DNA of 54,995 nt from Opitutales bacterium (lineage in GTDB: Bacteria > Verrucomicrobiota > Verrucomicrobiia > Opitutales > Oceanipulchritudinaceae). Positions 24,401-37,874 of the stretch are shown in pieces (position 1 is the first letter of the stretch; every line of letters begins with the position of its first letter). The translations under genes were made by a program, and so were the position numbers. The notes beneath the pieces are model-generated. The model was not told where the DNA came from. It saw only the letters and a program-made list of their open reading frames with translations, and did no database searches. Where the stretch lies: assembly GCA_020831585.1 (NCBI GenBank), contig JAFIGE010000012.1, positions 1-54,995 of the forward strand. Direction: 5' to 3'.

Positions 24401-27400
24401 TCACAACTCGCTTTCCTGCACCCAGTCGACGAAATTGGAGATCTCGAAGAAACGACGATTCGGGATCACAGTGCCTTGCTCGAAAAGGATCCAACTTCCG
24501 AAACGCGGGAAGAAGAACCATGGATAGGCTGTGGTGTTTGTCCAAAGCCAATCGAGGTTGCTGTCGAAGAACCACAGCCCTTCCTCCGCAGACTCGCCAA
24601 AGACAAATTGGAAGCCGTGCTCGGCGTGGTAAATAAAACCTTCCGCCGGATCCCAGAGGGTGCCATACCAAGGGGAAACGAACCACCGGTCTCCCAGCGG
24701 TTCGGCGTCTTCCCATGGCGGGAGCGGATCATCAACACCTGCCGGAATCGAGCTATCCCTAGAAATAGTGATGCCGCTAAGAAACTCTATGTCATCGTCA
24801 AACACATCAAAAAAATGAACTTCGTAAACCCAAGCCTCCCCATCAACAACGGTGAGAATTTCACGGAAATTTCCACCAGAAGTTTCGAGAGGAACCGAAG
24901 TATCCAAATCCGTCTTAACAGAAAACAACAGGAAATAGGTCCTTCCGGAATAAATATCTCTAACCAAAAGGTCGGACGATCTCCCTCCATCATACCAGCC
25001 GACAGAAAGAATTTCCGGATAAAGGAGCCCTGCGGGCAACCGAAGATGGAAAGGAGACGCCAAAGGACCTTCCTGACTGAAAGGAAGGACAAAAAGATCC
25101 CCAGTCAATCGATGTTGGAGAATCATGTCGTCAACACCATTTTCGTCAACATCCGCCAACGCGACGACCTCTTTATTCAAAGCAAAATTCAAAACAACTT
25201 CTCCAGGAACCGCCTTAACCAAACTACCTGAGACTTCCTCAGAAACGCGGAAATCGCTTGGCACCGAAGCACCATTCATTCTCCAGAGAGTTACTTCCCC
25301 GGTTTGAGAACTCTTCCAGAGCAAATCCGCACGCCCGTTTCCGGTCAAGTCTCCAGCTAAGTGGGGCCGCCATTCTGGAGACATCGCAAATTCCTCCGAT
25401 GTAATTAAAACCCCCGAGGTCTGAATCCGCGCGTCCACGAACTCAAAATGCCCCTCACCACGCCGAAACAGAAGTTGAGTCGTCCCGTCACCTTTAAAAT
25501 CAGCACCCAAGACAAAATCCCTAACAACATTGTCATTAAACAGAAACCCGGACCACAAAAGCTCCCCTTCACCGGTTTGCCAAAGTGCGGTATTACCCGA
25601 ACCTCTTTGTTGCCAAAGGAAAGAGGAAGCAAATTGACCTTGCATATCCCCACTCACTAGAAGGTCCCAATCCGGAGCGAGATCCCGATAAGCTAGGTGA
25701 TCAATACGGAAACCTCCTACATCTTGGTCCAAAGAAAAGTTTAGGAGAGCCACTGAACCGACCGTGTCCAACTGCGATATCATCAAGTCAGTCGAGGTGC
25801 TCGCATTGAAATCCCCGAACGCAATTCTGTCCTGGGAGGTTACAGAGAACTCACCTGCGAGAGCGAAAGCTTCCGCACGCCAGTTTGGAGAAACTCGAAA
25901 ATCGACCATATTCTCCGCTCGCAAAGAGGAAACAGTTCGGAGGAGGTGAACTGTTCCAGTTTGCTGATTTAACCATGCAAGATCCGTATTTCCATTACCA
26001 TCAAAATTTGGAAGCGGGACAGGCGGAACTACCCGCAAAAAGAGGGAGAAAGAATCCGCACCGAAACGGTTAAACACAATGAACTCAATCTCATAAAACC
26101 CAATCGATGAACCCGAGGATGGAACTCCCATGAGGAAACCGTCGGAAACAGCTAAACCCGCAGTGGCAAGAGTAGTGCCAACCCGTCTTCCATCGGATTC
26201 GATTCGAAAAACGCGAGAGCTAAAGCGGTTTAGGTTTTCTGGATCAACAAGGTCTGCCCGGGTTGGAGCGAGGCGAGGAATGAGATTTCTTCGCAGAAGC
26301 GCAATGACCTCCTCTCCTTCAGAGATGAAAGAGAAAGGATCCCAACTGATGGCAAGAGCCAAATTTTCTACATCACGAACATCGGGAACGCGAAAAGAAA
26401 AAGTAACAGGGACCGGATTCAAAAACTCCTCGTAGATCATTGAATTATTTCTCTCAGGTCCCATCCTTAAAGGAACAGTTATTGAGAAAGACCCCTCTCC
26501 GCGAGAAAAAACGGAGCCCGCTAAAAACAAAGTGTCTCTGTTCTCCCTAGCAAGCTCTAAAACGGTGTAATCCGCAGGGGCATTAGCCGGGCGATCTGGG
26601 AGCGCAATGAAGGCGTCAACATCATCAAGATTGAAAATGCGTTCACCAACCAAAACTCCTTCAGGCACCTCGACCCCAGAACCTTCAATCATCCAGGGAT
26701 TGAAAATTTCATCCAGAAATCTTGCAACGTCGAAACGAAAATCAAAAAATACATCAGGACGCTGACTTTGGGGACGATCCACCTCACGTCGGTTTGAACT
26801 GGAAAAAACCTCGGGAAGAAGAGAACTTGGATCGCGTTCAAATGCAAGAAATTGCAAAGCAGGCAGGCGATCATCCGAGATTTCGGGAAGCACAATCATA
26901 TTTAGAGTGTAATCAACGTAGTCAAGACCGTCATTTTCCGCGAGAAAAGTAGGGTCTGTTTGAGTAAAAGAATTTCGAAGTCTAAAAACGACATCATAAG
27001 AATCAGAAACTAACTCAGAAGAATCCGGAACGCGGCCGTGGAGAAAATTCGTCTCCGGATCAAAACTCAACCAAGATGGAAGGTTAAATACCTCAACTTC
27101 GGACGGACGCTGGCCAAAAACCGCCCCATAAAAAACCCGCCTTCCAGCAGAAGCGGTCAGGGTATCTTCGCTGGCTAGAAATGGTGCTGCAGGTGCTGTA
27201 ATGAAAGCAAAGTCATCCATGAAGACGAAGGTCCGGAAATTCCGACCCACAATGCGCACCTTCACACCAGTTATACTTACATCTGGACGCGGACTCCTGA
27301 TTCCAAAAAACGTATTCCACCCGCCATTAGACTGCCTTGTATTGGATGTGGTAACAACATCTGACCCGTCTGAAAAGAAGGTTCTTACGATAATATTGCC

Positions 27401-28300
27401 CGGATTGTCAGGGATAGCTCCCAAACCCTGCCAATACTGAAAGTTATTTACACTTAGCAAAACAAAACCAATGGCCTGGATATTATCCGCCGCATCGAAC
27501 TCAAGATGGGCAATACCGGAAGCCAAAGAAAAAGGGGAACTCGCAGCAGTCAACTCCCCACCAGAATAAGTAGACCGACCGACTGTAAAAAAATTATTGT
27601 CATTGATTCGGGAACCCAATGCCTCCGCCCCAGGGTGAGCCGCGGATGCAAGGCCGCCCTCAATGTAATGAAACTCTCCCCTTCGAATTGTTAGGGACCG
27701 ATCCAACCCAGTGCCGAAGACAATCTCCATTCGATCAAAAAAAGTTTCATTGCCCAAAGGATTTACCGACCCTCCGGCAACCTGTTCCCGGCTTGGATCA
27801 TTCCTTGCCTCAACAGGCAACAGAGAACGACTAATTCGGTCCTCAGCCTCACGACGCAGGCGCAGAATCTCGCTTTGACGAGCCGACTCAGTTGGAAGCT
27901 CGCCCGGTCCCAGATTTAACTGCCATTGATCCAGTCCTTCTTCAATAAAAGCACGGACCCAGGTTCGGTCCTCCATTAAGAGACGACCTCCAAAAAAAGG
28001 ATTATCAAAATTTACCACCCCTCCGTCGCCACGTTCAACCGCATCCTGCAAGAGAGCAACGAACTCAGCGAAATGCACGACATGAGGAGGTGCCGCTTCT
28101 AAGGGCGCATTTTCCCCAGTTGCAAAGTTGGAGACTGGAAGATCAGGAGCGAAATCCGAAACCACCGGAAACGAGGCCTTTTCCCTTACGAAATTTGACG
28201 CAAAAGTTGAAACACTTATTCCAAAGAACAGTAAGCTCAAAAGTAATTTGGAAGACACTGAAGGACGAATATATTGAAAAAATGAATTGATAAATAACAT
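24401..28300 (-). CDS. Giant secreted protein: putative-Ig, FG-GAP and Trp-rich C-terminal module
   Basis: The protein is 1299 residues. The N-terminus has a hydrophobic signal segment (SKLLLSLLFFGISVSTFA). Residues about 190-370 form a beta-rich module ending in RNFRTFVFMDDFAF, also found in the 1223-residue neighbour. Residues about 380-475 resemble a putative-Ig (He_PIG) domain with LPSWLSFDPETNFLHGRV. FG-GAP-like loops (NFDGNGNTDLAWL, DLTGNGRADLLW, DVDENGVDDMIL) fill the C-terminal half. The last 100 residues are rich in Trp, Phe and Tyr (EGLWFFDSNLDWLWTN, YPWFFF, GSWILFEQG). It is 48 bp from the TonB receptor gene, probably cotranscribed, and may act with it as a surface binding protein. 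The DNA is AT-richer than elsewhere in the window. Confidence 0.8.
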   Translation of the reverse strand: MLFINSFFQYIRPSVSSKLLLSLLFFGISVSTFASNFVREKASFPVVSDFAPDLPVSNFATGENAPLEAAPPHVVHFAEFVALLQDAVERGDGGVVNFDNPFFGGRLLMEDRTWVRAFIEEGLDQWQLNLGPGELPTESARQSEILRLRREAEDRISRSLLPVEARNDPSREQVAGGSVNPLGNETFFDRMEIVFGTGLDRSLTIRRGEFHYIEGGLASAAHPGAEALGSRINDNNFFTVGRSTYSGGELTAASSPFSLASGIAHLEFDAADNIQAIGFVLLSVNNFQYWQGLGAIPDNPGNIIVRTFFSDGSDVVTTSNTRQSNGGWNTFFGIRSPRPDVSITGVKVRIVGRNFRTFVFMDDFAFITAPAAPFLASEDTLTASAGRRVFYGAVFGQRPSEVEVFNLPSWLSFDPETNFLHGRVPDSSELVSDSYDVVFRLRNSFTQTDPTFLAENDGLDYVDYTLNMIVLPEISDDRLPALQFLAFERDPSSLLPEVFSSSNRREVDRPQSQRPDVFFDFRFDVARFLDEIFNPWMIEGSGVEVPEGVLVGERIFNLDDVDAFIALPDRPANAPADYTVLELARENRDTLFLAGSVFSRGEGSFSITVPLRMGPERNNSMIYEEFLNPVPVTFSFRVPDVRDVENLALAISWDPFSFISEGEEVIALLRRNLIPRLAPTRADLVDPENLNRFSSRVFRIESDGRRVGTTLATAGLAVSDGFLMGVPSSGSSIGFYEIEFIVFNRFGADSFSLFLRVVPPVPLPNFDGNGNTDLAWLNQQTGTVHLLRTVSSLRAENMVDFRVSPNWRAEAFALAGEFSVTSQDRIAFGDFNASTSTDLMISQLDTVGSVALLNFSLDQDVGGFRIDHLAYRDLAPDWDLLVSGDMQGQFASSFLWQQRGSGNTALWQTGEGELLWSGFLFNDNVVRDFVLGADFKGDGTTQLLFRRGEGHFEFVDARIQTSGVLITSEEFAMSPEWRPHLAGDLTGNGRADLLWKSSQTGEVTLWRMNGASVPSDFRVSEEVSGSLVKAVPGEVVLNFALNKEVVALADVDENGVDDMILQHRLTGDLFVLPFSQEGPLASPFHLRLPAGLLYPEILSVGWYDGGRSSDLLVRDIYSGRTYFLLFSVKTDLDTSVPLETSGGNFREILTVVDGEAWVYEVHFFDVFDDDIEFLSGITISRDSSIPAGVDDPLPPWEDAEPLGDRWFVSPWYGTLWDPAEGFIYHAEHGFQFVFGESAEEGLWFFDSNLDWLWTNTTAYPWFFFPRFGSWILFEQGTVIPNRRFFEISNFVDWVQESEL

Positions 28301-28348
28301 TGGAATACCTTTATAAGATTAAATTAAATTTAAGCGCAACTAGACTGT

Positions 28349-31090
28349 TCAAAAACGGTAGGAGGCCGTCAAACGCCACCGTCGAGGTTCAGTTAGAGCG
28401 TAGCCATATACCTTATCGTCATTCAATAGATTAGAAATATTCAAACGCAAATTGAGCGATCCCTTTGGAAACTCGATTTCATAGCCGAGAGCCATGTCCA
28501 AAGTGAGTCTGTCCGCAACCACTCGCGCGGTGTTTTGATCCAATCCGAATTGCGCAAATCGGCGATCTGACCAACGAACCCCGACCCCAATGTCCAAGCG
28601 ATCCAGCGGACCCTCTCTAAACGTGTATTTATTCCAGACGCGGAAACTAAACCGAGGTTGATCATTTGTTTCTCCTAAGGCAGCGGCGGCGCTGTATGGG
28701 CTATCATTTGAGGCATCCAAAGCTTCAACTTCCGTGGCCGCGAACCTCTCAAAAATAAATTCACCTTGCTCTGGAGTTGGTCCATCTCGGAAATCCTGAA
28801 ACACAACAAAATACGCATCCAAGGGTCTGTAATGATTATAGCTGAAGGACAACACCGTTTCGAAATTTGGCACCAGATCAATAAAGAAAACTTGGGCGTC
28901 GAACCCTTCTGATCGATCATCTCGCGTGATGCTGTTGGACGGGACCCTGTTTTGCGCGTGCCACGCAGCAGCGGAAGGGCGTCGATTGTCTGGTTCCCCA
29001 GGGGCTGGAGGCGCAGAATCGCGAATGAACGGTCCGATATCTTGGCCTATTCCCAACCTCTCAATGACCGCATTAGGCAAACTACCTCCAAATACAACGT
29101 CTTGCCGATCAACCCGATACAAAGAGAACGAACCAGAGATACGACCATCTAGAAAATCTACCTTGGCCCCCAGCTCATAACTTTGGGCCGATTGCGGAGG
29201 AGCCTGAAGTCCATCTCTCAATCGCTGACCTCCAGTTGCCTCAGGATCCAACGCGCTCGCAGTCAGCACAAAAATTGCAATGTCCGGAGTGACCGAAAAA
29301 GAAGCACCGAAAGAGAAGTTTATCTCCTCAGTCTTTGGACCCTTGCCCACCGGTGCCGGAGTCCCAGCCAAAGAAAAATCACCATCACCGAGGAGCCTTT
29401 CTGAATCACTTCGACTAAATCGATTGCCCCCTGCTCGGTAATCGCCAAGCTGGTAACTATCAAAGCGGAGTCCGGCAATGGTGCGTAGACGATCATCTAA
29501 AAAGGCGGTTTGATGAATAAGATAAGATCCAATTGCCTCGTGTCTGTAAGTTGTAGAGCGAAATCCGCTGACAAAAAAGTCAACGTCTTCTCCGGGGTAA
29601 AATTCCCGCGTAAAACGAATGGGATCCCGATCATTGATCGATGTAAAGCGCGGGTTAGGACTTGTAAATCGACCAGCTTCATGGATGAAGGGACGTTCCC
29701 TGTTGTTACCTGGACTATCGCCTAACCCGAATTCCGAACCCAAACCGGACTGATCCAGAAGCTTCCACGCCTGCGGGCGCTCCCGTAAAACATCTCTTGT
29801 GAGACCGACCATGAGGGTGTGATCCAATCCGAACCAATCGGGCTGATAAAGAAACTCAATTCGAGATTGCACCCGAACCCGATGAACGTCTAGTCGATTC
29901 CACTGTGATTGCAAACCAAAGCTCGAATCAGCAAACCGATCATCATACTCCTTATGGAGAGGATTAAAGGACCAACCCACATTCTGCCGAAGAAAACGGC
30001 CCTGTGGAGTCGCTGCCTCCCACGGGACCGCCGTAAGTGTTGGACTCGCCCTTTGCTCGAAGCGCCTGTTTGTCGACCAATAATAGCCGAGACTCACGGC
30101 CAATTGATCACTAAAAGCATGATTGACCAAGACGAGAGCACCAATGTCCTCAAAATCCCTTGTCGTGTCAGGTCCAGAAAAGCGAAATGCGCGTGAAGGG
30201 TAGGCCAAAAAACCGCCCTGCGTGAAGGCCTCCGGGCGAACCCCCGTGTCCTGATCAAGAAAAGGCAGATCCTGCCGCCCCAAAAAGGTTTCATCTAGAG
30301 GATTTTCCGGCTGGGTAGCCGAAGATTCAAAATAATCGAACTCAAGTTGAATTCTTGTTCTATCTCCAAGAGTAATCCCAAACACTGGGGCGATACCCCA
30401 CCGGTCTTCTTCAAAATGGTCCTGCCAGCCCTCAGTTGTCTGATACATCACAGGCAATCGCATATTCACACCCTCAAACAAAGGCGTGTTGAAATCCGCC
30501 TGCACTCTTCGGAATCCCCATGAGCCCACGACCAGCTGGCTACGGAAATCCAAATTGTCAACCGGAGCTCTTGTCACGTAGTTCACAACTCCACCAAGAT
30601 TACCAATACCATAGAGCAATGCATTTGGTCCCCGCACCACGTCCACTTGAGTTACGTTAATCGTGTCGGAACCACCCTCTCGGCGAAAACCGTGCCGAAG
30701 CACCGCTTGAGAAACAAAGCCACGTAAGCGGAAGGAGGTTGCATTTCGCTGAAAAACAGCGGGATTCTCACCCGCCTGAGCGGCCAAAACATCTGTCTCC
30801 ACCCCCGCCGTGTATTGCAAAGCGTCGCGCACGGTCAAGGCTCCCGTGTCTCGGATAAAGTCCTCAGTAATGATATCGATGGGGATCGGAACATCGCGGA
30901 CCAACTGGGCCAGGCGCGTGCCGGACATCGAGGTCGTGGCGACGTATCCCCGTTGGGCGGAGCCGTCGACGATGAAGGCATCGAGAATGAAGATATCTTC
31001 GTCCTGCGGAGGGGTCTGAGCTTGAAGAGAGAGGGACCCGATGGCACACACGGTGGCGAGGCCCCATTTGCGGAGATTCAGCATTTGCAT
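28349..31090 (-). CDS. TonB-dependent outer-membrane receptor
   Basis: The 913-residue protein has a signal peptide (to LSLQA) and a plug domain. The plug carries VPIPIDIITEDFIRDTGALTV, DALQYTAGVETD, FRLRGF, VDVVRGPNALLYGIGNLGGVVNYVT and ends near residue 170. A 22-strand-type beta barrel follows, closing with the aromatic C-terminal RLTASYRF. The plug wording is close to siderophore-type receptors, but such receptors in Verrucomicrobia also serve polysaccharide uptake. The gene context (GH26-like enzyme, carbohydrate-binding modules) favours glycans as inference. No SusD-like protein is seen. The first 100 codons are GC-rich whereas the barrel-coding part is AT-richer. No Shine-Dalgarno precedes the ATG at 31090. 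Confidence 0.9.
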   Translation of the reverse strand: MQMLNLRKWGLATVCAIGSLSLQAQTPPQDEDIFILDAFIVDGSAQRGYVATTSMSGTRLAQLVRDVPIPIDIITEDFIRDTGALTVRDALQYTAGVETDVLAAQAGENPAVFQRNATSFRLRGFVSQAVLRHGFRREGGSDTINVTQVDVVRGPNALLYGIGNLGGVVNYVTRAPVDNLDFRSQLVVGSWGFRRVQADFNTPLFEGVNMRLPVMYQTTEGWQDHFEEDRWGIAPVFGITLGDRTRIQLEFDYFESSATQPENPLDETFLGRQDLPFLDQDTGVRPEAFTQGGFLAYPSRAFRFSGPDTTRDFEDIGALVLVNHAFSDQLAVSLGYYWSTNRRFEQRASPTLTAVPWEAATPQGRFLRQNVGWSFNPLHKEYDDRFADSSFGLQSQWNRLDVHRVRVQSRIEFLYQPDWFGLDHTLMVGLTRDVLRERPQAWKLLDQSGLGSEFGLGDSPGNNRERPFIHEAGRFTSPNPRFTSINDRDPIRFTREFYPGEDVDFFVSGFRSTTYRHEAIGSYLIHQTAFLDDRLRTIAGLRFDSYQLGDYRAGGNRFSRSDSERLLGDGDFSLAGTPAPVGKGPKTEEINFSFGASFSVTPDIAIFVLTASALDPEATGGQRLRDGLQAPPQSAQSYELGAKVDFLDGRISGSFSLYRVDRQDVVFGGSLPNAVIERLGIGQDIGPFIRDSAPPAPGEPDNRRPSAAAWHAQNRVPSNSITRDDRSEGFDAQVFFIDLVPNFETVLSFSYNHYRPLDAYFVVFQDFRDGPTPEQGEFIFERFAATEVEALDASNDSPYSAAAALGETNDQPRFSFRVWNKYTFREGPLDRLDIGVGVRWSDRRFAQFGLDQNTARVVADRLTLDMALGYEIEFPKGSLNLRLNISNLLNDDKVYGYALTEPRRWRLTASYRF

Positions 31091-31182
31091 TTTTGGTTGG
31101 GAAGGAGGGGTTAAGTTTGGAGGAGGGAATCGTGCCCCCCTCCGAACTCGGGATCAAATCAAAAGCACGGGGTTTGTTGCGC

Positions 31183-34100
31183 TCAAGGAGCCGGCGGGGA
31201 GAGAAGCGATTCCTCAACCCAATCTTTCAGGGAAGCGACCCAGAAAACGCGGTCGGGAGCAACCGTGCTCCGGTTGTAGTAAATCCAGCCGATGTCGCTT
31301 CCGGCAAAGAACCACGGGTAAGTGTCTTCGTCGGAGAAATACCAAAGGGAGAGTTCGAAATCGTAGAGCCAAAAGCCGGTTTCAACGGCGAAGAGCCCCA
31401 ACCAACCGTGCACCGGTGAGAAGATGAAGCTGTCGGCCACATCCGGAATTTCGGCATAGAGCACACCGTTATCAAACCACGTGCCTTGGAGCAGGAAGGC
31501 CCCGTCCGGCTCGAACTCGGTGGCACCGGGGAAAAGATCCGGCGCCTCGGAGGCGGCCTGCGCGATCGAAATCGACAAACCCGCGCCTTCGAAATCGAAA
31601 GTAACCGCGCGGTCCCGTAAGGTGCGGTTGGGCGCGATGACGAGGCGGATTTCCTCAAAATCGCCTGAAGCTTCCCCGCTCATACCATCCGGCGCCGTCA
31701 CCCAACTCACTCCGGGGTCAAGGCTCCAAGGAGAACCCTCGGTGGCTGCGAGAATTTCGATCGAGACTTCACCGCCAGCGGAACCGACGTTGAAGTTGGT
31801 ATCAAAAATGTCGAAGAACGGTGGCGCACCTTCCTGAGTCACTTCCAGAGAGGCCAGCGGCGTGGGCTCACCGGCCACCACGATCAAAAGATCGAGGGTG
31901 CTCATCCGCGGGTTCACATTATTATTGGCCCCAAAGGAGAGGGTGATACGGTCGGTGCCAACGCCCAGACCGGCGTCGGTTACGGAAATCCACGCCGCGC
32001 GGGGAGCGAGCATCCATTGAATGCCTGCTGGCACATTCACATCGACCTGACGGCTCTCACCGGCACTGGCGATGGTAACGGATGCAGGCGTGAAGGTCGG
32101 CAGATCGCGAATCGTGAGGGAAGCGCGCCGGCTTTCGGTTTCACCCGCCTCATTGGACAGGCGAACCCAGTAGAGGTCTTCATCGGCTTCCGAAACGTTC
32201 GTCAGGGTCAGGCTGTTGCCGGTTTCGCCCACCAGCTCAGTCTCACCGCGGAACCACTGGAAGTCGACGTCGCCCTCCGTCACGTTGGTGTCCACTTCCA
32301 CAGTGAAGACCACCGTTTCCCCCGGATAGACCAGCTTGTTCGCCGGCTCCGCTGCGATGACCGGGGGCAGCGCGCCCTCATCGCCCTCTACGGCGACGGC
32401 GAGGTCATCGATATCAAAGAGGAGGCGGAAGTTGTTTCCGAGCGCCCACACTTCAATGCGCTCCAAGTAATAGCCCTCTTCCGGGCTTTCGAAACCGAAG
32501 AAAGTATTTTGTCCCAGGCCCGGGCCATCATCGCCCTGGTAAGTGAAACCCGTCGAGATGAGGTCGACGCGGCTGTCGCCATTCACGAAGGTAGCGGTGG
32601 CCCGGATGTTCGGTTTGTTGGCGAAGTCCTTCGTCGCCCGGTGGCTTTGGAAATAGTTCCGGTTGATGAAGACGAAGCCCGTGAGCGTGATGAGGTCCTC
32701 GGGGTCGAAAGCCAGTTCAATAAATGAGCTGGCCCCCAGTACGTAAGGCTCTGAAGAGGCAGTTTGTCCGTCTCCGGAAGGGCTGTGCGGGTTGATGGAA
32801 GCCAAGGGAAAAGGATCGGTGACGAGAAAGCCGTTCGGGTGTGGGAGCAACCCGGTGGCGTGGATATAATTGGGGGCACCGGACTCGCGCCCGGCATAGC
32901 CATCGACAAAACCGCCGCTGTTGCGCACGTTGGGCACCACGCGGATGTCGCGGTCCTCACCGATGCGAAGCAGAAGCTCCCCGATATAGCCCAGACCGGG
33001 AGACGGGTCGAGGGTGTTGTTAAACTGCAGGTTGCCATCCTCGTCGCGCAGGGGCGGATAATCAAAGGGCAGGAATTCGGTTGCGCCGGGGGCGGTTGGC
33101 TTGGGAAGCCCCGAAACCAATTGAGCGGTATCGAGGTTGAATCCAAAAACACCGCCGCGGCCATCGTTGTAGGCGGCACCAATTCGGGCATTGAACAGAC
33201 CCCGTGGGATCGAAGCGACCGTTTCGGGCTCATCCTCCGGATCGTGCGGGCTCAATTCCCCGCCGATCTGATCATCGACGATTCCATCGAACTCGATCAC
33301 ATCGCCCAACGTGGGTGAAGGGAAAAGACGCACCACGCGGGCATCCTCGGGGATCGTGAACTCAACAACAGTCAAGGTAACGCGAGCGCTCTCAATACTA
33401 TTCTCCAGCTCATCGGTGACGACGACAAAATACTCACCCGAATCCGCAACACGGGCGGGGTTGAGGCTCAGTGTGCGGTCGGTGGCTCCTTCAATTTCTT
33501 CTCCCTCCGGACCAAACCACTGGTAAGAGACGTCGAAGGGGCTGTCCACCTCGACCGAGAGCGTCACCCGGTCGCCATCCAGCACGGTGCGGCTGACGGG
33601 TTGCGCGATGATTTCCGTGGAGGGGGTTTCCGCCAGGCGGGCATTCTCCGTTTGAATGTTGCCGCCTGCGGCGAGCAAGGCGCGCGCGGCGAGGGAGTTG
33701 ACTCCGCCGATAGGAAGACGCACAGGAGAGCCAATCTGAATACCCGTGTGGAGAATGAAGGGCATCGTCGCCAAGTTGCCACCGGAACCGGCGGGAATGG
33801 GAGTCCCTGTGTTAAACATCCACTGATAACTACTGATCTGCGCTGGCGAATCCACCAGGAAGATGGCCACGGTCTCGCGCTCGCCGACGGTCACGGCGGC
33901 GGCAGCAGCGGCGCTCTCCACGGCTACAGCGCGCGCGGTCCACTGTTCACCGAGCATGCCGACAACATCGTTGGGCGCGGCGAGAATCACCGGCGGACGC
34001 GGGGAAGGTCCCGTGTAAGCGGCGGGCACCACATCGCCCCAGGATCTCCCGATGGCCAGGTTATCGACGCGGGAGGGCATATTTTGCGCGCGGAAACGGA

Positions 34101-34854
34101 AGCTCGCGTTGCCAGCGACACCCTCGACCGTATCTCCGATGACCAGCGGACCTGCTTCGGGAAAAGTGGTGGAATAGTCCGGAGATCCACCATCGCCGGA
34201 TTCCGGATCGAGCCAGAGGTCGACACCCGTGAGGTGACCGGCCTCATTCAGATTAAAGCGCGCCACGACGAAGAGCGTTTCGTTGAGGACGACGCGGGCA
34301 TCCGGGAAAAACTGCCCCAAGATACCCTCGCCTTCCGGACCGGGGCCAACCGCCTCCAATCCGGCTTCTGCCCCGCCGACCGGGACCTTGAGCGCGGCGA
34401 ACGCCTGCGGGAAACCACTGCCCGTGACATCGGACCCAAAACCAAAGAAAAACTCATTGGAATCGCTGCCGAAAGCTGCCGCTGCGCGTGATTCAAGGCG
34501 AACGAGAAAACGTACGTAGGTCGTGCCAGACAAGGTGACGGGGCGGGCGGTAAAACTGTTCATCCGTGGGTTACCGTCCAGGCCCGCACGGGTATAAAAG
34601 TGGCGGGCGCTGGCGGGGAGGATGCCCCCGTCGGAGGCCACGCGGAAGAGGCCGCCGGGTTCGCCCCGCACTTCACTGGAGCGGGTGCCGGTGCCGTGCG
34701 TGTAGCTCCAGGCGTTTTGTCCGTCAATAGCGCCGGGGTTATTGAGTGTGAGGGGCGTGACCTGGGCCGACAAAGCGGCGGGGAGGCACGCCGCGAAAAG
34801 CGAGCCGGAAGCCAGAAGGATCCGGCCGAGGGAGGGAATGGATGCGTTCATCAT
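31183..34854 (-). CDS. Secreted modular protein: LamG-like, two Ig-like, two BACON-like domains, Trp-rich C-terminus
   Basis: Start MMNASIPSLGRILLASG at 34854 (or 34851) gives a signal peptide ending LPAALSAQ; the open frame upstream is not used. About 1223 residues. A LamG/concanavalin-like region comes first (to about residue 280). Two Ig-like domains follow, with SYQWFGPEG then DSGEYFVVVT, and FQWFRGETE then DLYWVRLSN. They flank a beta module containing NTFFGFESPEEGYYLERI and NNFRLLFDIDDLA. Two BACON-like repeats (AAWISVTD, VSWVTAPDG) come before a Trp/Tyr-rich tail (YPWFFAGSDIGWIYYN). BACON and LamG domains usually bind carbohydrate. Probably a surface or secreted glycan-binding protein. 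Confidence 0.82.
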   Translation of the reverse strand: MMNASIPSLGRILLASGSLFAACLPAALSAQVTPLTLNNPGAIDGQNAWSYTHGTGTRSSEVRGEPGGLFRVASDGGILPASARHFYTRAGLDGNPRMNSFTARPVTLSGTTYVRFLVRLESRAAAAFGSDSNEFFFGFGSDVTGSGFPQAFAALKVPVGGAEAGLEAVGPGPEGEGILGQFFPDARVVLNETLFVVARFNLNEAGHLTGVDLWLDPESGDGGSPDYSTTFPEAGPLVIGDTVEGVAGNASFRFRAQNMPSRVDNLAIGRSWGDVVPAAYTGPSPRPPVILAAPNDVVGMLGEQWTARAVAVESAAAAAAVTVGERETVAIFLVDSPAQISSYQWMFNTGTPIPAGSGGNLATMPFILHTGIQIGSPVRLPIGGVNSLAARALLAAGGNIQTENARLAETPSTEIIAQPVSRTVLDGDRVTLSVEVDSPFDVSYQWFGPEGEEIEGATDRTLSLNPARVADSGEYFVVVTDELENSIESARVTLTVVEFTIPEDARVVRLFPSPTLGDVIEFDGIVDDQIGGELSPHDPEDEPETVASIPRGLFNARIGAAYNDGRGGVFGFNLDTAQLVSGLPKPTAPGATEFLPFDYPPLRDEDGNLQFNNTLDPSPGLGYIGELLLRIGEDRDIRVVPNVRNSGGFVDGYAGRESGAPNYIHATGLLPHPNGFLVTDPFPLASINPHSPSGDGQTASSEPYVLGASSFIELAFDPEDLITLTGFVFINRNYFQSHRATKDFANKPNIRATATFVNGDSRVDLISTGFTYQGDDGPGLGQNTFFGFESPEEGYYLERIEVWALGNNFRLLFDIDDLAVAVEGDEGALPPVIAAEPANKLVYPGETVVFTVEVDTNVTEGDVDFQWFRGETELVGETGNSLTLTNVSEADEDLYWVRLSNEAGETESRRASLTIRDLPTFTPASVTIASAGESRQVDVNVPAGIQWMLAPRAAWISVTDAGLGVGTDRITLSFGANNNVNPRMSTLDLLIVVAGEPTPLASLEVTQEGAPPFFDIFDTNFNVGSAGGEVSIEILAATEGSPWSLDPGVSWVTAPDGMSGEASGDFEEIRLVIAPNRTLRDRAVTFDFEGAGLSISIAQAASEAPDLFPGATEFEPDGAFLLQGTWFDNGVLYAEIPDVADSFIFSPVHGWLGLFAVETGFWLYDFELSLWYFSDEDTYPWFFAGSDIGWIYYNRSTVAPDRVFWVASLKDWVEESLLSPPAP

Positions 34855-34889
34855 CTTCAAATGGAGGGGGGGTGCAAAAGGGGGGGAAA

Positions 34890-34928
34890 GGGGGAAAAGA
34901 GAACGCGCCCCCGTGAGCGGGGGGCGCG
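34890..34928 (-). terminator. Terminator after the 605-aa secreted protein gene
   Basis: CGCGCCCCC (34904-34912) pairs with GGGGGCGCG (34920-34928) over a seven-base loop. On the minus strand the stem is followed by a T-rich tract (GTTCTCTTTTCCCCC). It lies just after the stop at 34943, so this gene may end a transcript before the 1223-residue protein begins. Confidence 0.65.
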
Positions 34929-34942
34929 GCTCTGAAAAAGAT

Positions 34943-36760
34943 TTAGTCCACCGATGGGAAGAGAGGACCCTCTCCCCAGGTAAACCAGCCGCTTTCCTCA
35001 TCGGCAAAAATGTAATAGAGGGGCTCCTCCGCTGCCATGGAAACGTAAATCCATTGACCAAGCGTCTGCACGTAAGCGTAGAAGTGTGTGGAGGCGGAAA
35101 TGCCGTATAACCAGGACTCGCCTTGGGCATGGTAGAACCAGCCCTCTGTGTCGAGCGGCTCCAACTCGCCAACCCAGACGGACCCGAAGTCGGCGTAAAC
35201 GCCTACAAGCGGATACCACTGCGCCCAATTTTCGCCGAAGTAGTAGATGGAACCGAAAAGCGGGCTGCTGAAGAAATTACCGGCCGACCACTCAAGATCG
35301 GGCGTGAAAGTCCCCGCTGTTGGCGAAAGAGTCAGCAGCTCGTCAGCCACAAAGTAGAGGTTGCCGAGGCGAAGGCCGGTGCTCGTGGGGCGGTCCAGGC
35401 CCACAATGAAGTGAGTGAAGTTGCTGTAATCCACCTGGGCATCGAATGCCCAGGAGGCAGCGGGTTCGCCGGAGGGGGCGGCGGCCCCAAAGGGTGCGTA
35501 GTGGAAGTCAATGCGACGTTGAGCCAAGTTATAGACGACCCAGGCATGGTACCATTGCTCAGCCACCTGTGCTCCGGGAATGGCGATCGTGGTTGGGGGT
35601 GAAAAGGCCCGAAAAGCTTGCGGCGCCGCACCAAACGTGCCCAGGCGGGTATCGCCTCCGCGGCGAACCCAGTTGTCGGTGGACTCAAGTTGCGCGGTCC
35701 CAACAGCGGCGAAGCTGACATCCGAGCGACTCGTGGAGGGGGCGTTGATGAGAAAATCAAAGGTCACGGTGAACACACCAAACTCAACCTCCTCGGGAAG
35801 AGCCGTGTAGATCGACTCGCCCCGTGGGGAATCGGTTTGTGCCGTCGGCAGCATGTGCAGGTAGCCTTCGCTGAAGTCGAGGTTAAACTTCTCCAGGTCA
35901 CCCTCCCACGTTGCATTGGGCATGGCTCCGACAAAGGTGTCCACGGCTTGCCAGGAAGGCGGGTCGAGGACGATGGCGGTGGGCGTGAGATTCAGGTTTT
36001 CTCCAACGGCCATGTAGATGTTGGCAAACTGTCCGCCGAGGGCGGGAGCATCGGTGTTACCCGAACCGCCTGCGCCCAGAGCAAAGCGGGAGATCTCCGC
36101 AAAATCCTCCGCAACGGTCGCGCCCGCCAGATCCCAGGTGCCGCGATGAACAGCATCCTCCGTATCAGCATTGGCGCGGCGGGCGAAAAGAGAGACTTCC
36201 ATATCATCCAAGTCGTAAACGACCCAGATGTTGTACCAGACTCCCTGAAGAGTGGGCTCGAGAATATCGATCGTCCATTCCACATCGCCAAGCGCCACGC
36301 CGGCTTTGGCGAGGAACTGGGGGATCTTGTCGAGAAACTCGGTCGCTCCGACAGTGCGGTCCACCATTTGGAAGCGGTTCTGTAAACCCACACCCGCCCA
36401 AGCTCCCCGTGCGACCATGGCGGCAGAGCCGGCCCCAAAGCCGACCTGATTGAGGCTGCGGCCACCAGGCGCGAAAAAGTCGAAGGCAATCGTCACTTTT
36501 CCGGAGGAAACCGTTTGCGGGAGAACGACGGAGGCGCGCTCGGTATTTCCCGTTGCGGATGTCACAAAAAGATAGTTACCCGCATCCGAACTTCGTACCT
36601 CGTTGGCAAATCCGGAAGAAAAGGTCCAACTATCCTGAGGCGCACCTCCGGCAAAGGTGTCCACGACAACCCATTCCTGGGCGGAGGCGAGGGGAACAGA
36701 AAAAGCGGCTAAAGAAAAAAGCGCCAGAAGACGCGAAGGGCTTGTTAAGGAATATTTCAT
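34943..36760 (-). CDS. Secreted protein with two LamG-like repeats and Trp/Tyr-rich C-terminus
   Basis: Start MKYSLTSPSRLLALFSL at 36760 gives a signal peptide ending PLASAQ. The 605 residues contain a duplicated unit. The first begins EWVVVDTFAGGAPQDSW and contains VTIAFDFFAPGG, the second begins SWQAVDTFVGAMPNATW and contains VTFDFLINAPS. Both look like concanavalin/LamG-type beta sandwiches. The last 110 residues are Trp/Tyr-rich (NFFSSPLFGSIYYFGE, GWFYHAQGESWLYG, LGQWIYVS) and relate to the tails of the other two large proteins. No catalytic motif was found. A direct-repeat operator candidate lies upstream (36897-36928). Confidence 0.8.
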   Translation of the reverse strand: MKYSLTSPSRLLALFSLAAFSVPLASAQEWVVVDTFAGGAPQDSWTFSSGFANEVRSSDAGNYLFVTSATGNTERASVVLPQTVSSGKVTIAFDFFAPGGRSLNQVGFGAGSAAMVARGAWAGVGLQNRFQMVDRTVGATEFLDKIPQFLAKAGVALGDVEWTIDILEPTLQGVWYNIWVVYDLDDMEVSLFARRANADTEDAVHRGTWDLAGATVAEDFAEISRFALGAGGSGNTDAPALGGQFANIYMAVGENLNLTPTAIVLDPPSWQAVDTFVGAMPNATWEGDLEKFNLDFSEGYLHMLPTAQTDSPRGESIYTALPEEVEFGVFTVTFDFLINAPSTSRSDVSFAAVGTAQLESTDNWVRRGGDTRLGTFGAAPQAFRAFSPPTTIAIPGAQVAEQWYHAWVVYNLAQRRIDFHYAPFGAAAPSGEPAASWAFDAQVDYSNFTHFIVGLDRPTSTGLRLGNLYFVADELLTLSPTAGTFTPDLEWSAGNFFSSPLFGSIYYFGENWAQWYPLVGVYADFGSVWVGELEPLDTEGWFYHAQGESWLYGISASTHFYAYVQTLGQWIYVSMAAEEPLYYIFADEESGWFTWGEGPLFPSVD

Positions 36761-36953: not shown

Positions 36954-37874
36954 TCATCTTTCTTTCGTTAGATGCACATAGAGGGGGCTCCTCATTTCCT
37001 CGCGAAAAGCCCGCAGGACAGCGGGATGGTCCTGAATGCGGGCATTTCCCCAGTCGTGCCATTGGGGATAGCCGGCCCAGTTCCAATTGATGTAGCAAAA
37101 CGCCTTGATGACCCCGTGGTCTCGAATAAGAGCGAAAAAAGGCGCAAACCATTGCGACCAGGATTCCATGCCGCTTTCGACGCCCACCCGGCGGGGTGTG
37201 CACTCGCCAATCATGACCGGTTTGCGCCGGGCGGCGGCCTCGTGAAGAAACTTGGGGGCGGTCTGCAAATGAACCGTTGAAAAAAGATCGATGGACCACC
37301 AGTCGGCCCATTCGTCGCCCGGGTCGTAGGGGTGATAGTTATCGAGGAAGCCCCCTTCTATACACCAGACGATGGCGACTCCGGGGACGGCGGCGCGGAG
37401 TTTGCGGGCGACGTGGCGAAAGGCGGCGACGTAGGTCTCGGGCACGTAACCATTCCAGGGTCCGTTGGCTTCATAGCCAATGCGCACGTAGATTTGGCGG
37501 CGAAGCGAAACGAGAAAGGCGCAAAGCTGGTCGAGGGCCGCGTCGTGCTCGCCCGCCGCCACCTCGTGCTCGTAGTGCTTCTCCGGCTGGCCGTCGTGGG
37601 TCATGGACAGGCCGAGCTGAAGTGCGGTGTGCGGACGGGCAAAGGTCTCCAGCTCCTGCGCGAGCTTGTCGAGGCGCTCGGTCCGAAGCCCGCGCAAGCC
37701 CAGGTAGGCCATGTAAAGGGCAGGCTCGGTCTTCTGGTCGGCAAAGAGCGCGCTGTAGTCGGCGAAGGATTGAGCATCTTGGCCGGCACCGTGCAAGACG
37801 GTGGCGGGCGGTTCACCGACGGCACCAAACTCCGCGCGTGCTCGGTAGGCTGGGGACATGGAATCAGGGGACAT
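36954..37874 (-). CDS. GH26-like glycoside hydrolase
   Basis: The 306-residue protein has the hallmarks of the GH26/clan-A TIM-barrel family. YVRIGYEANGPWNGY carries the probable acid/base Glu (in beta-mannanases this is HExNG-like), and KPVMIGECTPR carries the probable nucleophile Glu. VAIVWCIEGG and AFCYINWNW are also typical. GH26 enzymes cut beta-mannan or related beta-glycans. No signal peptide is visible after the ATG at 37874 (second ATG 37859), so it may be cytoplasmic, or its start lies elsewhere. It is the first gene of the minus-strand series leading to the TonB receptor. Confidence 0.7.
   Translation of the reverse strand: MSPDSMSPAYRARAEFGAVGEPPATVLHGAGQDAQSFADYSALFADQKTEPALYMAYLGLRGLRTERLDKLAQELETFARPHTALQLGLSMTHDGQPEKHYEHEVAAGEHDAALDQLCAFLVSLRRQIYVRIGYEANGPWNGYVPETYVAAFRHVARKLRAAVPGVAIVWCIEGGFLDNYHPYDPGDEWADWWSIDLFSTVHLQTAPKFLHEAAARRKPVMIGECTPRRVGVESGMESWSQWFAPFFALIRDHGVIKAFCYINWNWAGYPQWHDWGNARIQDHPAVLRAFREEMRSPLYVHLTKER

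Follow-up and report, generated by a model that had tools for sequence, protein, structure and literature searches.

Tryptophan- and tyrosine-rich modules at the ends of many exported proteins in an order of Verrucomicrobiota: a candidate means of surface retention

Three exported proteins encoded in a 54,995-nucleotide stretch of DNA from an Opitutales bacterium (contig JAFIGE010000012.1 of assembly GCA_020831585.1; hereafter the window) end in copies of the same aromatic-rich module, and comparison across related genomes shows this module to be one family, modular, located mostly at protein ends, present in many copies per genome and swappable between proteins. As far as sequence and fold comparisons tell, none of the family libraries and solved structures that we searched contains it. 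We tentatively propose, with slightly less than even confidence, that it acts autonomously to hold exported proteins at the cell surface non-covalently, in the manner of the CWB2 and SLH modules.

The window features on which the analysis is based are the following, with bit scores given against a family profile built without the window sequences:

24401-28300, minus strand: protein A, an open reading frame of 1299 aa with a signal peptide, a region common with protein B, weak FG-GAP-like repeats and the module
24404-24718, minus strand: canonical copy of the aromatic-repeat module at the end of protein A (residues 1195-1299; 95.4 bits)
27206-27727, minus strand: region of protein A common with B (A residues 192-365; BLASTP)
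28349-31090, minus strand: TonB-dependent receptor between A and B, without the module (Plug domain, E=1.3e-13)
31183-34854, minus strand: protein B, 1223 aa, with a signal peptide, Ig-like domains, a BACON-like region and the module
31201-31524, minus strand: terminal copy of the module in protein B (residues 1111-1218 out of 1223; 55.1 bits)
32398-32979, minus strand: corresponding region of protein B (residues 732-925, counted in the long open reading frame; BLASTP)
34943-36760, minus strand: protein C, placed by its open reading frame and start, with a signal peptide and the module at its C-terminus
34958-35203, minus strand: divergent module of protein C, placed by profile alignment (18.9 bits)

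The length of protein B was counted from the methionine that precedes its signal peptide. On the minus strand the genes follow one another in the order C, B, TonB-dependent receptor and A, with gaps of 88, 92 and 48 bases, and make up one apparent operon. Protein A matched FG-GAP_3 with an E-value of 1.7e-4, under the Pfam cut-off; protein B matched Ig_3 in Pfam (E=1.2e-14) and BACON at 22.6 bits, under its cut-off; and protein C matched nothing in Pfam or NCBIfam, while containing further aromatic-rich sequence upstream of its module, up to about position 35305. The receptor matched TIGR01783 with an E-value of 3.4e-38, under the cut-off of that NCBIfam model. Upstream of C, at a distance of 193 bases, lies another gene (36954-37874, minus strand), whose product has no match in either Pfam or NCBIfam and, by eye, resembles TIM-barrel glycosidases; possibly this gene, C, B, the receptor and A make up an operon for glycan uptake.

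An earlier, sequence-only reading of the window had noticed that the tails of the three proteins are alike and that the three have nothing further in common, and both observations held, with all open reading frames as placed. The tails of A and B share 36% identity across 89 residues (E=5e-12). Direct BLAST comparison of the C tail with A or B was not significant (E 0.26-5); against the profile free of window sequences, its score corresponded to an E-value of 3e-4, compared with 8.9 bits for the best of 2000 residue shuffles and -2.0 bits for the reversed sequence, and we therefore consider C to carry a real, divergent copy of the module. Nothing else is common to all three, yet A and B share a second domain of ~190 residues (29% identity over 194 aa, E~3e-11 in BLASTP), which no Pfam model names.

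The module is ~100 residues long, rich in tryptophan and tyrosine, and consists of about five imperfect aromatic repeats of ~20 residues, its consensus core reading W-F-G-x-F ... P-W-I-Y-H-x-E-H-G-W-L-Y ... W-x-Y-D-x-x-L-G-W-L-W-T ... Y-P-x-x-Y ... W-L-Y-Y ... R-x-F-Y ... W. Across 141 aligned copies, conservation was highest at W75 (100%), W56 (96%), G19 (95%), P65 (93%) and W17 (92%), followed by W28 (86%), G35 (84%) and F88 (83%). Tryptophans at positions 17, 36, 56, 75 and 96 are spaced by 19-21 residues, and column permutation supported periods of 19-20 and 38-39 residues (the best z was 3.5, with p=0.02 once the maximum across offsets was allowed for); self-comparison in hhalign returned a weak match (E=0.016) at an offset of roughly two repeats. 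In the structure prediction suggested by the sequence-only reading, two AlphaFold models (five sequences) reached mean pLDDT values of 66.6 and 58.5, the second and worse of them with another lead sequence, so that both are of low confidence, and the better one had no known-fold match. With this low confidence, the paired strands in the models are consistent with beta-hairpins, and a ~20-residue aromatic repeat with hairpin-like strands would fit a ligand-binding surface.

Searches of Pfam, NCBIfam and PHROGs with the module gave nothing at or above cut-off, and 16 native members scanned against Pfam and NCBIfam showed no module match; CWB2 (PF04122) and SLH (PF00395) were absent from the Pfam scans of members, as was PEP-CTERM (PF07589) from the scan of the 16. 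Neither the members nor the consensus significantly matched PDB sequences, and a hit to XepA (E=0.55) was rejected as chance. When the first model was compared to PDB folds, the best Foldseek E-value was 0.78, and kinship with the Polo-box was likewise rejected, given that its VIA-align Z of 4.7 is at a level common for unmatched models. The tails thus matched no described domain in the libraries or the PDB searched, and we found no description of such a domain in the open literature, which does not prove its absence there.

To define the breadth of the family we used a profile of 16 copies from the source genome, which detected 27 copies in that genome at E<=1e-3. Within the same family of bacteria the module was present in 16 of 17 genomes, at 5-44 copies each, and within the order in 52 of 177 (125 were negative), where the best 27 candidates per genome were scored and high copy numbers are accordingly lower bounds. 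The single-contig, 5.8 Mb genome G278 harbors 57 copies and G307 harbors 45, with 47, 22 and 12 in G001, G008 and G013, respectively. An even sample across the phylum yielded six positive genomes among 194, two of these outside the order. One genome outside the order, G041, has seven shorter and Trp-richer copies that stop after about the third repeat (loci L167, L170, L174, L178, L182, L186 and L190), several of them clustered on one contig. A scan of contigs with one narrow pattern found three loci only, all in Verrucomicrobiota (Opitutia and Verrucomicrobia MAGs), and phage genomes, plasmids and viral contigs, queried with single sequences or narrow patterns, gave zero copies.

We then considered where the module sits and what it is attached to. 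Among 71 carriers read whole or nearly whole, each with one copy, the module was C-terminal in 54, near the N-terminus in 11 and internal in six; in a second, partially overlapping set of loci, 65 copies were C-terminal and 27 were not. In the 54 C-terminal copies, one of which is at a contig edge, 0-17 residues separate the module from the stop, too few for a membrane helix and a basic tail. The 11 copies on the N-terminal side follow shortly after the signal peptide or the start; at one locus of G278 (L191, around 839654-843211) three similar consecutive open reading frames each have the module near the N-terminus. By a simple heuristic, a signal-peptide-like start was found in 57 of the 71 carriers and a lipobox in none.

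The carriers are highly diverse, with 73 Pfam families matched by the 70 that were scanned. In the source genome the module is joined to FGE-sulfatase, BACON, pectate-lyase-like, Endonuclease I, subtilase and, weakly, trypsin-like domains, and further to cyclophilin, fasciclin, PQQ propeller, fn3 and autotransporter-associated repeats. The profile search proposed in the sequence-only reading therefore did not lead to one protein family, as it might have, and recovered mostly C-terminal copies on many different exported proteins. That reading had also supposed a sorting, anchoring or glycan-binding module specific to the lineage, and this fared unevenly: an uncatalogued, lineage-concentrated, mostly C-terminal module on many different exported proteins is what was found, and a strictly C-terminal sorting tail is not, since about a quarter of the copies are N-terminal or internal.

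Endonuclease I provides the clearest test of modularity. Of 12 homologues from six genomes, six end in the module, five are intact with another tail and the twelfth is cut by a contig end; forms with and without the module occur together in G000, G002, G005 and G011. That only half of these homologues carry it, while five with intact ends do not, indicates that the module is a swappable suffix. PEP-CTERM has been described as a suffix of this kind, a region that only some members of an otherwise homologous family possess (PMC3237569). The tails of the module-free homologues (L203, L208, L209, L210 and L212) look alike, with the pattern ...StDLqnW...FRl.v, and are possibly a second lineage-specific C-terminal domain. 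In three genomes (L093, L109 and L129) an Endonuclease I carrier is paired with an adjoining carrier of ~600 residues, both modules being C-terminal and that of the ~600-residue protein weak.

Among the known systems closest to the module are CWB2 and SLH, non-covalent terminal modules on many functionally diverse surface proteins per genome; the module is likewise terminal on many different proteins, whose surface location we infer. In C. difficile, 29 proteins are attached to an anionic polymer by CWB2 at one terminus or the other (PMC4973711), and the module too is found at either end. The differences are that CWB2 and SLH belong to Gram-positive walls, whereas the bacteria with the module have an outer membrane, and that CWB2 consists of three tandem motifs of ~100 residues and SLH of motifs of ~55 residues, whereas the module is one unit of ~100 residues built of ~20-residue aromatic repeats. 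Choline-binding repeats (PF01473) share with it a ~20-residue repeat length and richness in Trp and Tyr; they form a beta-hairpin solenoid, and the low-confidence models of the module show hairpin-like strands, but hhalign against the repeats of three phage endolysins aligned no more than nine columns (E=0.42).

Under the proposal of non-covalent surface retention, the module would fold independently outside the cell, appended near either end of exported and apparently non-lipidated proteins, and would stay with the mature protein after export. Its exposed Trp/Tyr faces would bind a shared constituent of the envelope of the producer itself, most likely O-antigen or exopolysaccharide, and would in this way keep enzymes, binding proteins and adhesins at the surface with neither a lipid nor a covalent anchor; in the window, three putative binding proteins would be held beside a TonB-dependent receptor. 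We favor this reading because the placement at either end, the diverse partners, the lack of lipid or covalent-anchor signals and the aromatic repeat surface all resemble CWB2, and because of the breadth of the family, its copy number, its suffix behavior and a modest association with TonB receptors. It is disfavored by the strength of the C-terminal bias, which goes beyond what a pure anchor needs, by cyclophilin-type and other possibly periplasmic carriers, for which surface display is unnecessary, and by the poor structure models.

That same bias is the main point for regarding the module as an export signal, recognized by an outer-membrane secretion machine comparable to Type IX and perhaps removed or linked later, an explanation also in keeping with dozens of substrates per genome and with homologues that have the module in common only as a suffix. 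Secretion tails of the Type IX sort are generally C-terminal, and the Por/Type IX C-terminal domain is beta-rich, similar in size to the module and found on diverse exported proteins. Nevertheless, the copies near the N-terminus, chiefly, and the six internal ones speak against an export signal, and unlike the Type IX tail the module has no Pfam or NCBIfam match; we consider this explanation unlikely. A search for SprA_N in 19 genomes gave no match, the control genomes being equally silent. The earlier view that the module is not a PEP-CTERM tail was upheld. PEP-CTERM comprises a motif, a membrane helix and a basic cluster (PMC3237569); the module is similarly a C-terminal suffix on many exported proteins, but has none of these three elements and can be N-terminal. 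PEP-CTERM matches number 48 in the source genome, and PEP-CTERM substrates were not detected in the module-rich G001, G008 and G013, which makes the two look independent.

If the ligand were instead an environmental polysaccharide, of algae or plants, the module would be a carbohydrate-binding one that targets enzymes and binding proteins to it and not to the producer. Aromatic residues are typical for sugar binding, the partners include some that act on polysaccharides or are lectin-like, and a TonB receptor adjoins in the window, but most identified partners (nucleases, proteases, cyclophilin, fasciclin, FGE-sulfatase) are not carbohydrate enzymes, and we consider this explanation as unlikely as an export signal. 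Less probable still is docking between proteins, in which an aromatic beta surface would bind a proline-rich or other peptide of a scaffold as OCRE or WW domains do. OCRE (PF17780) is similarly built of aromatic-rich beta-strand repeats, in its case of eight residues and one strand each, as solved in a human splicing factor, and the OCRE of RBM5 binds a proline-rich peptide through exposed tyrosines (PMC5127646). The family consensus scored 19.6 bits against OCRE (cut-off 24.7), but consensus sequences inflate scores, none of the 16 native members matched, and no scaffold was identified. Terminal placement would also suit a ligand-free structural cap that stabilizes or shields the termini of exported proteins; we think this very improbable, as a pattern conserved across unrelated partners, together with its presence or absence in homologous enzymes, suggests a shared recognized feature.

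Taken further, surface retention would amount to a previously undescribed surface-display system, in which one family, present dozens of times in each genome, attaches much of the exported proteome of an outer-membrane Verrucomicrobiota order to a lineage-specific envelope polymer, in parallel to and independently of exosortase sorting; this broader picture we regard as possible but rather doubtful. How Verrucomicrobiota, polysaccharide degraders among them, retain large sets of exported proteins is poorly known, and the module offers a handle on it: many of these genomes have roughly 20-57 proteins that bear it, and it predicts which of them belong together. Many unannotated proteins can be grouped by it, and it would deserve a domain-family entry.

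Lastly, the relation of module genes to TonB receptors was examined in the source genome, where four of 16 receptors have a module gene no more than 4 kb away (p=0.014, in a simulation that ignored contig ends and involved few loci and partly weak module hits). This association hints that some module carriers may cooperate with uptake receptors as their partners at the surface. The nearest relative of the C tail in the source genome (L197 / L198 4291-5415, E=1.2e-6) also adjoins a TonB receptor, and a PEP-CTERM protein (L198 5737-6693) has both a TonB receptor and a module carrier as neighbors.
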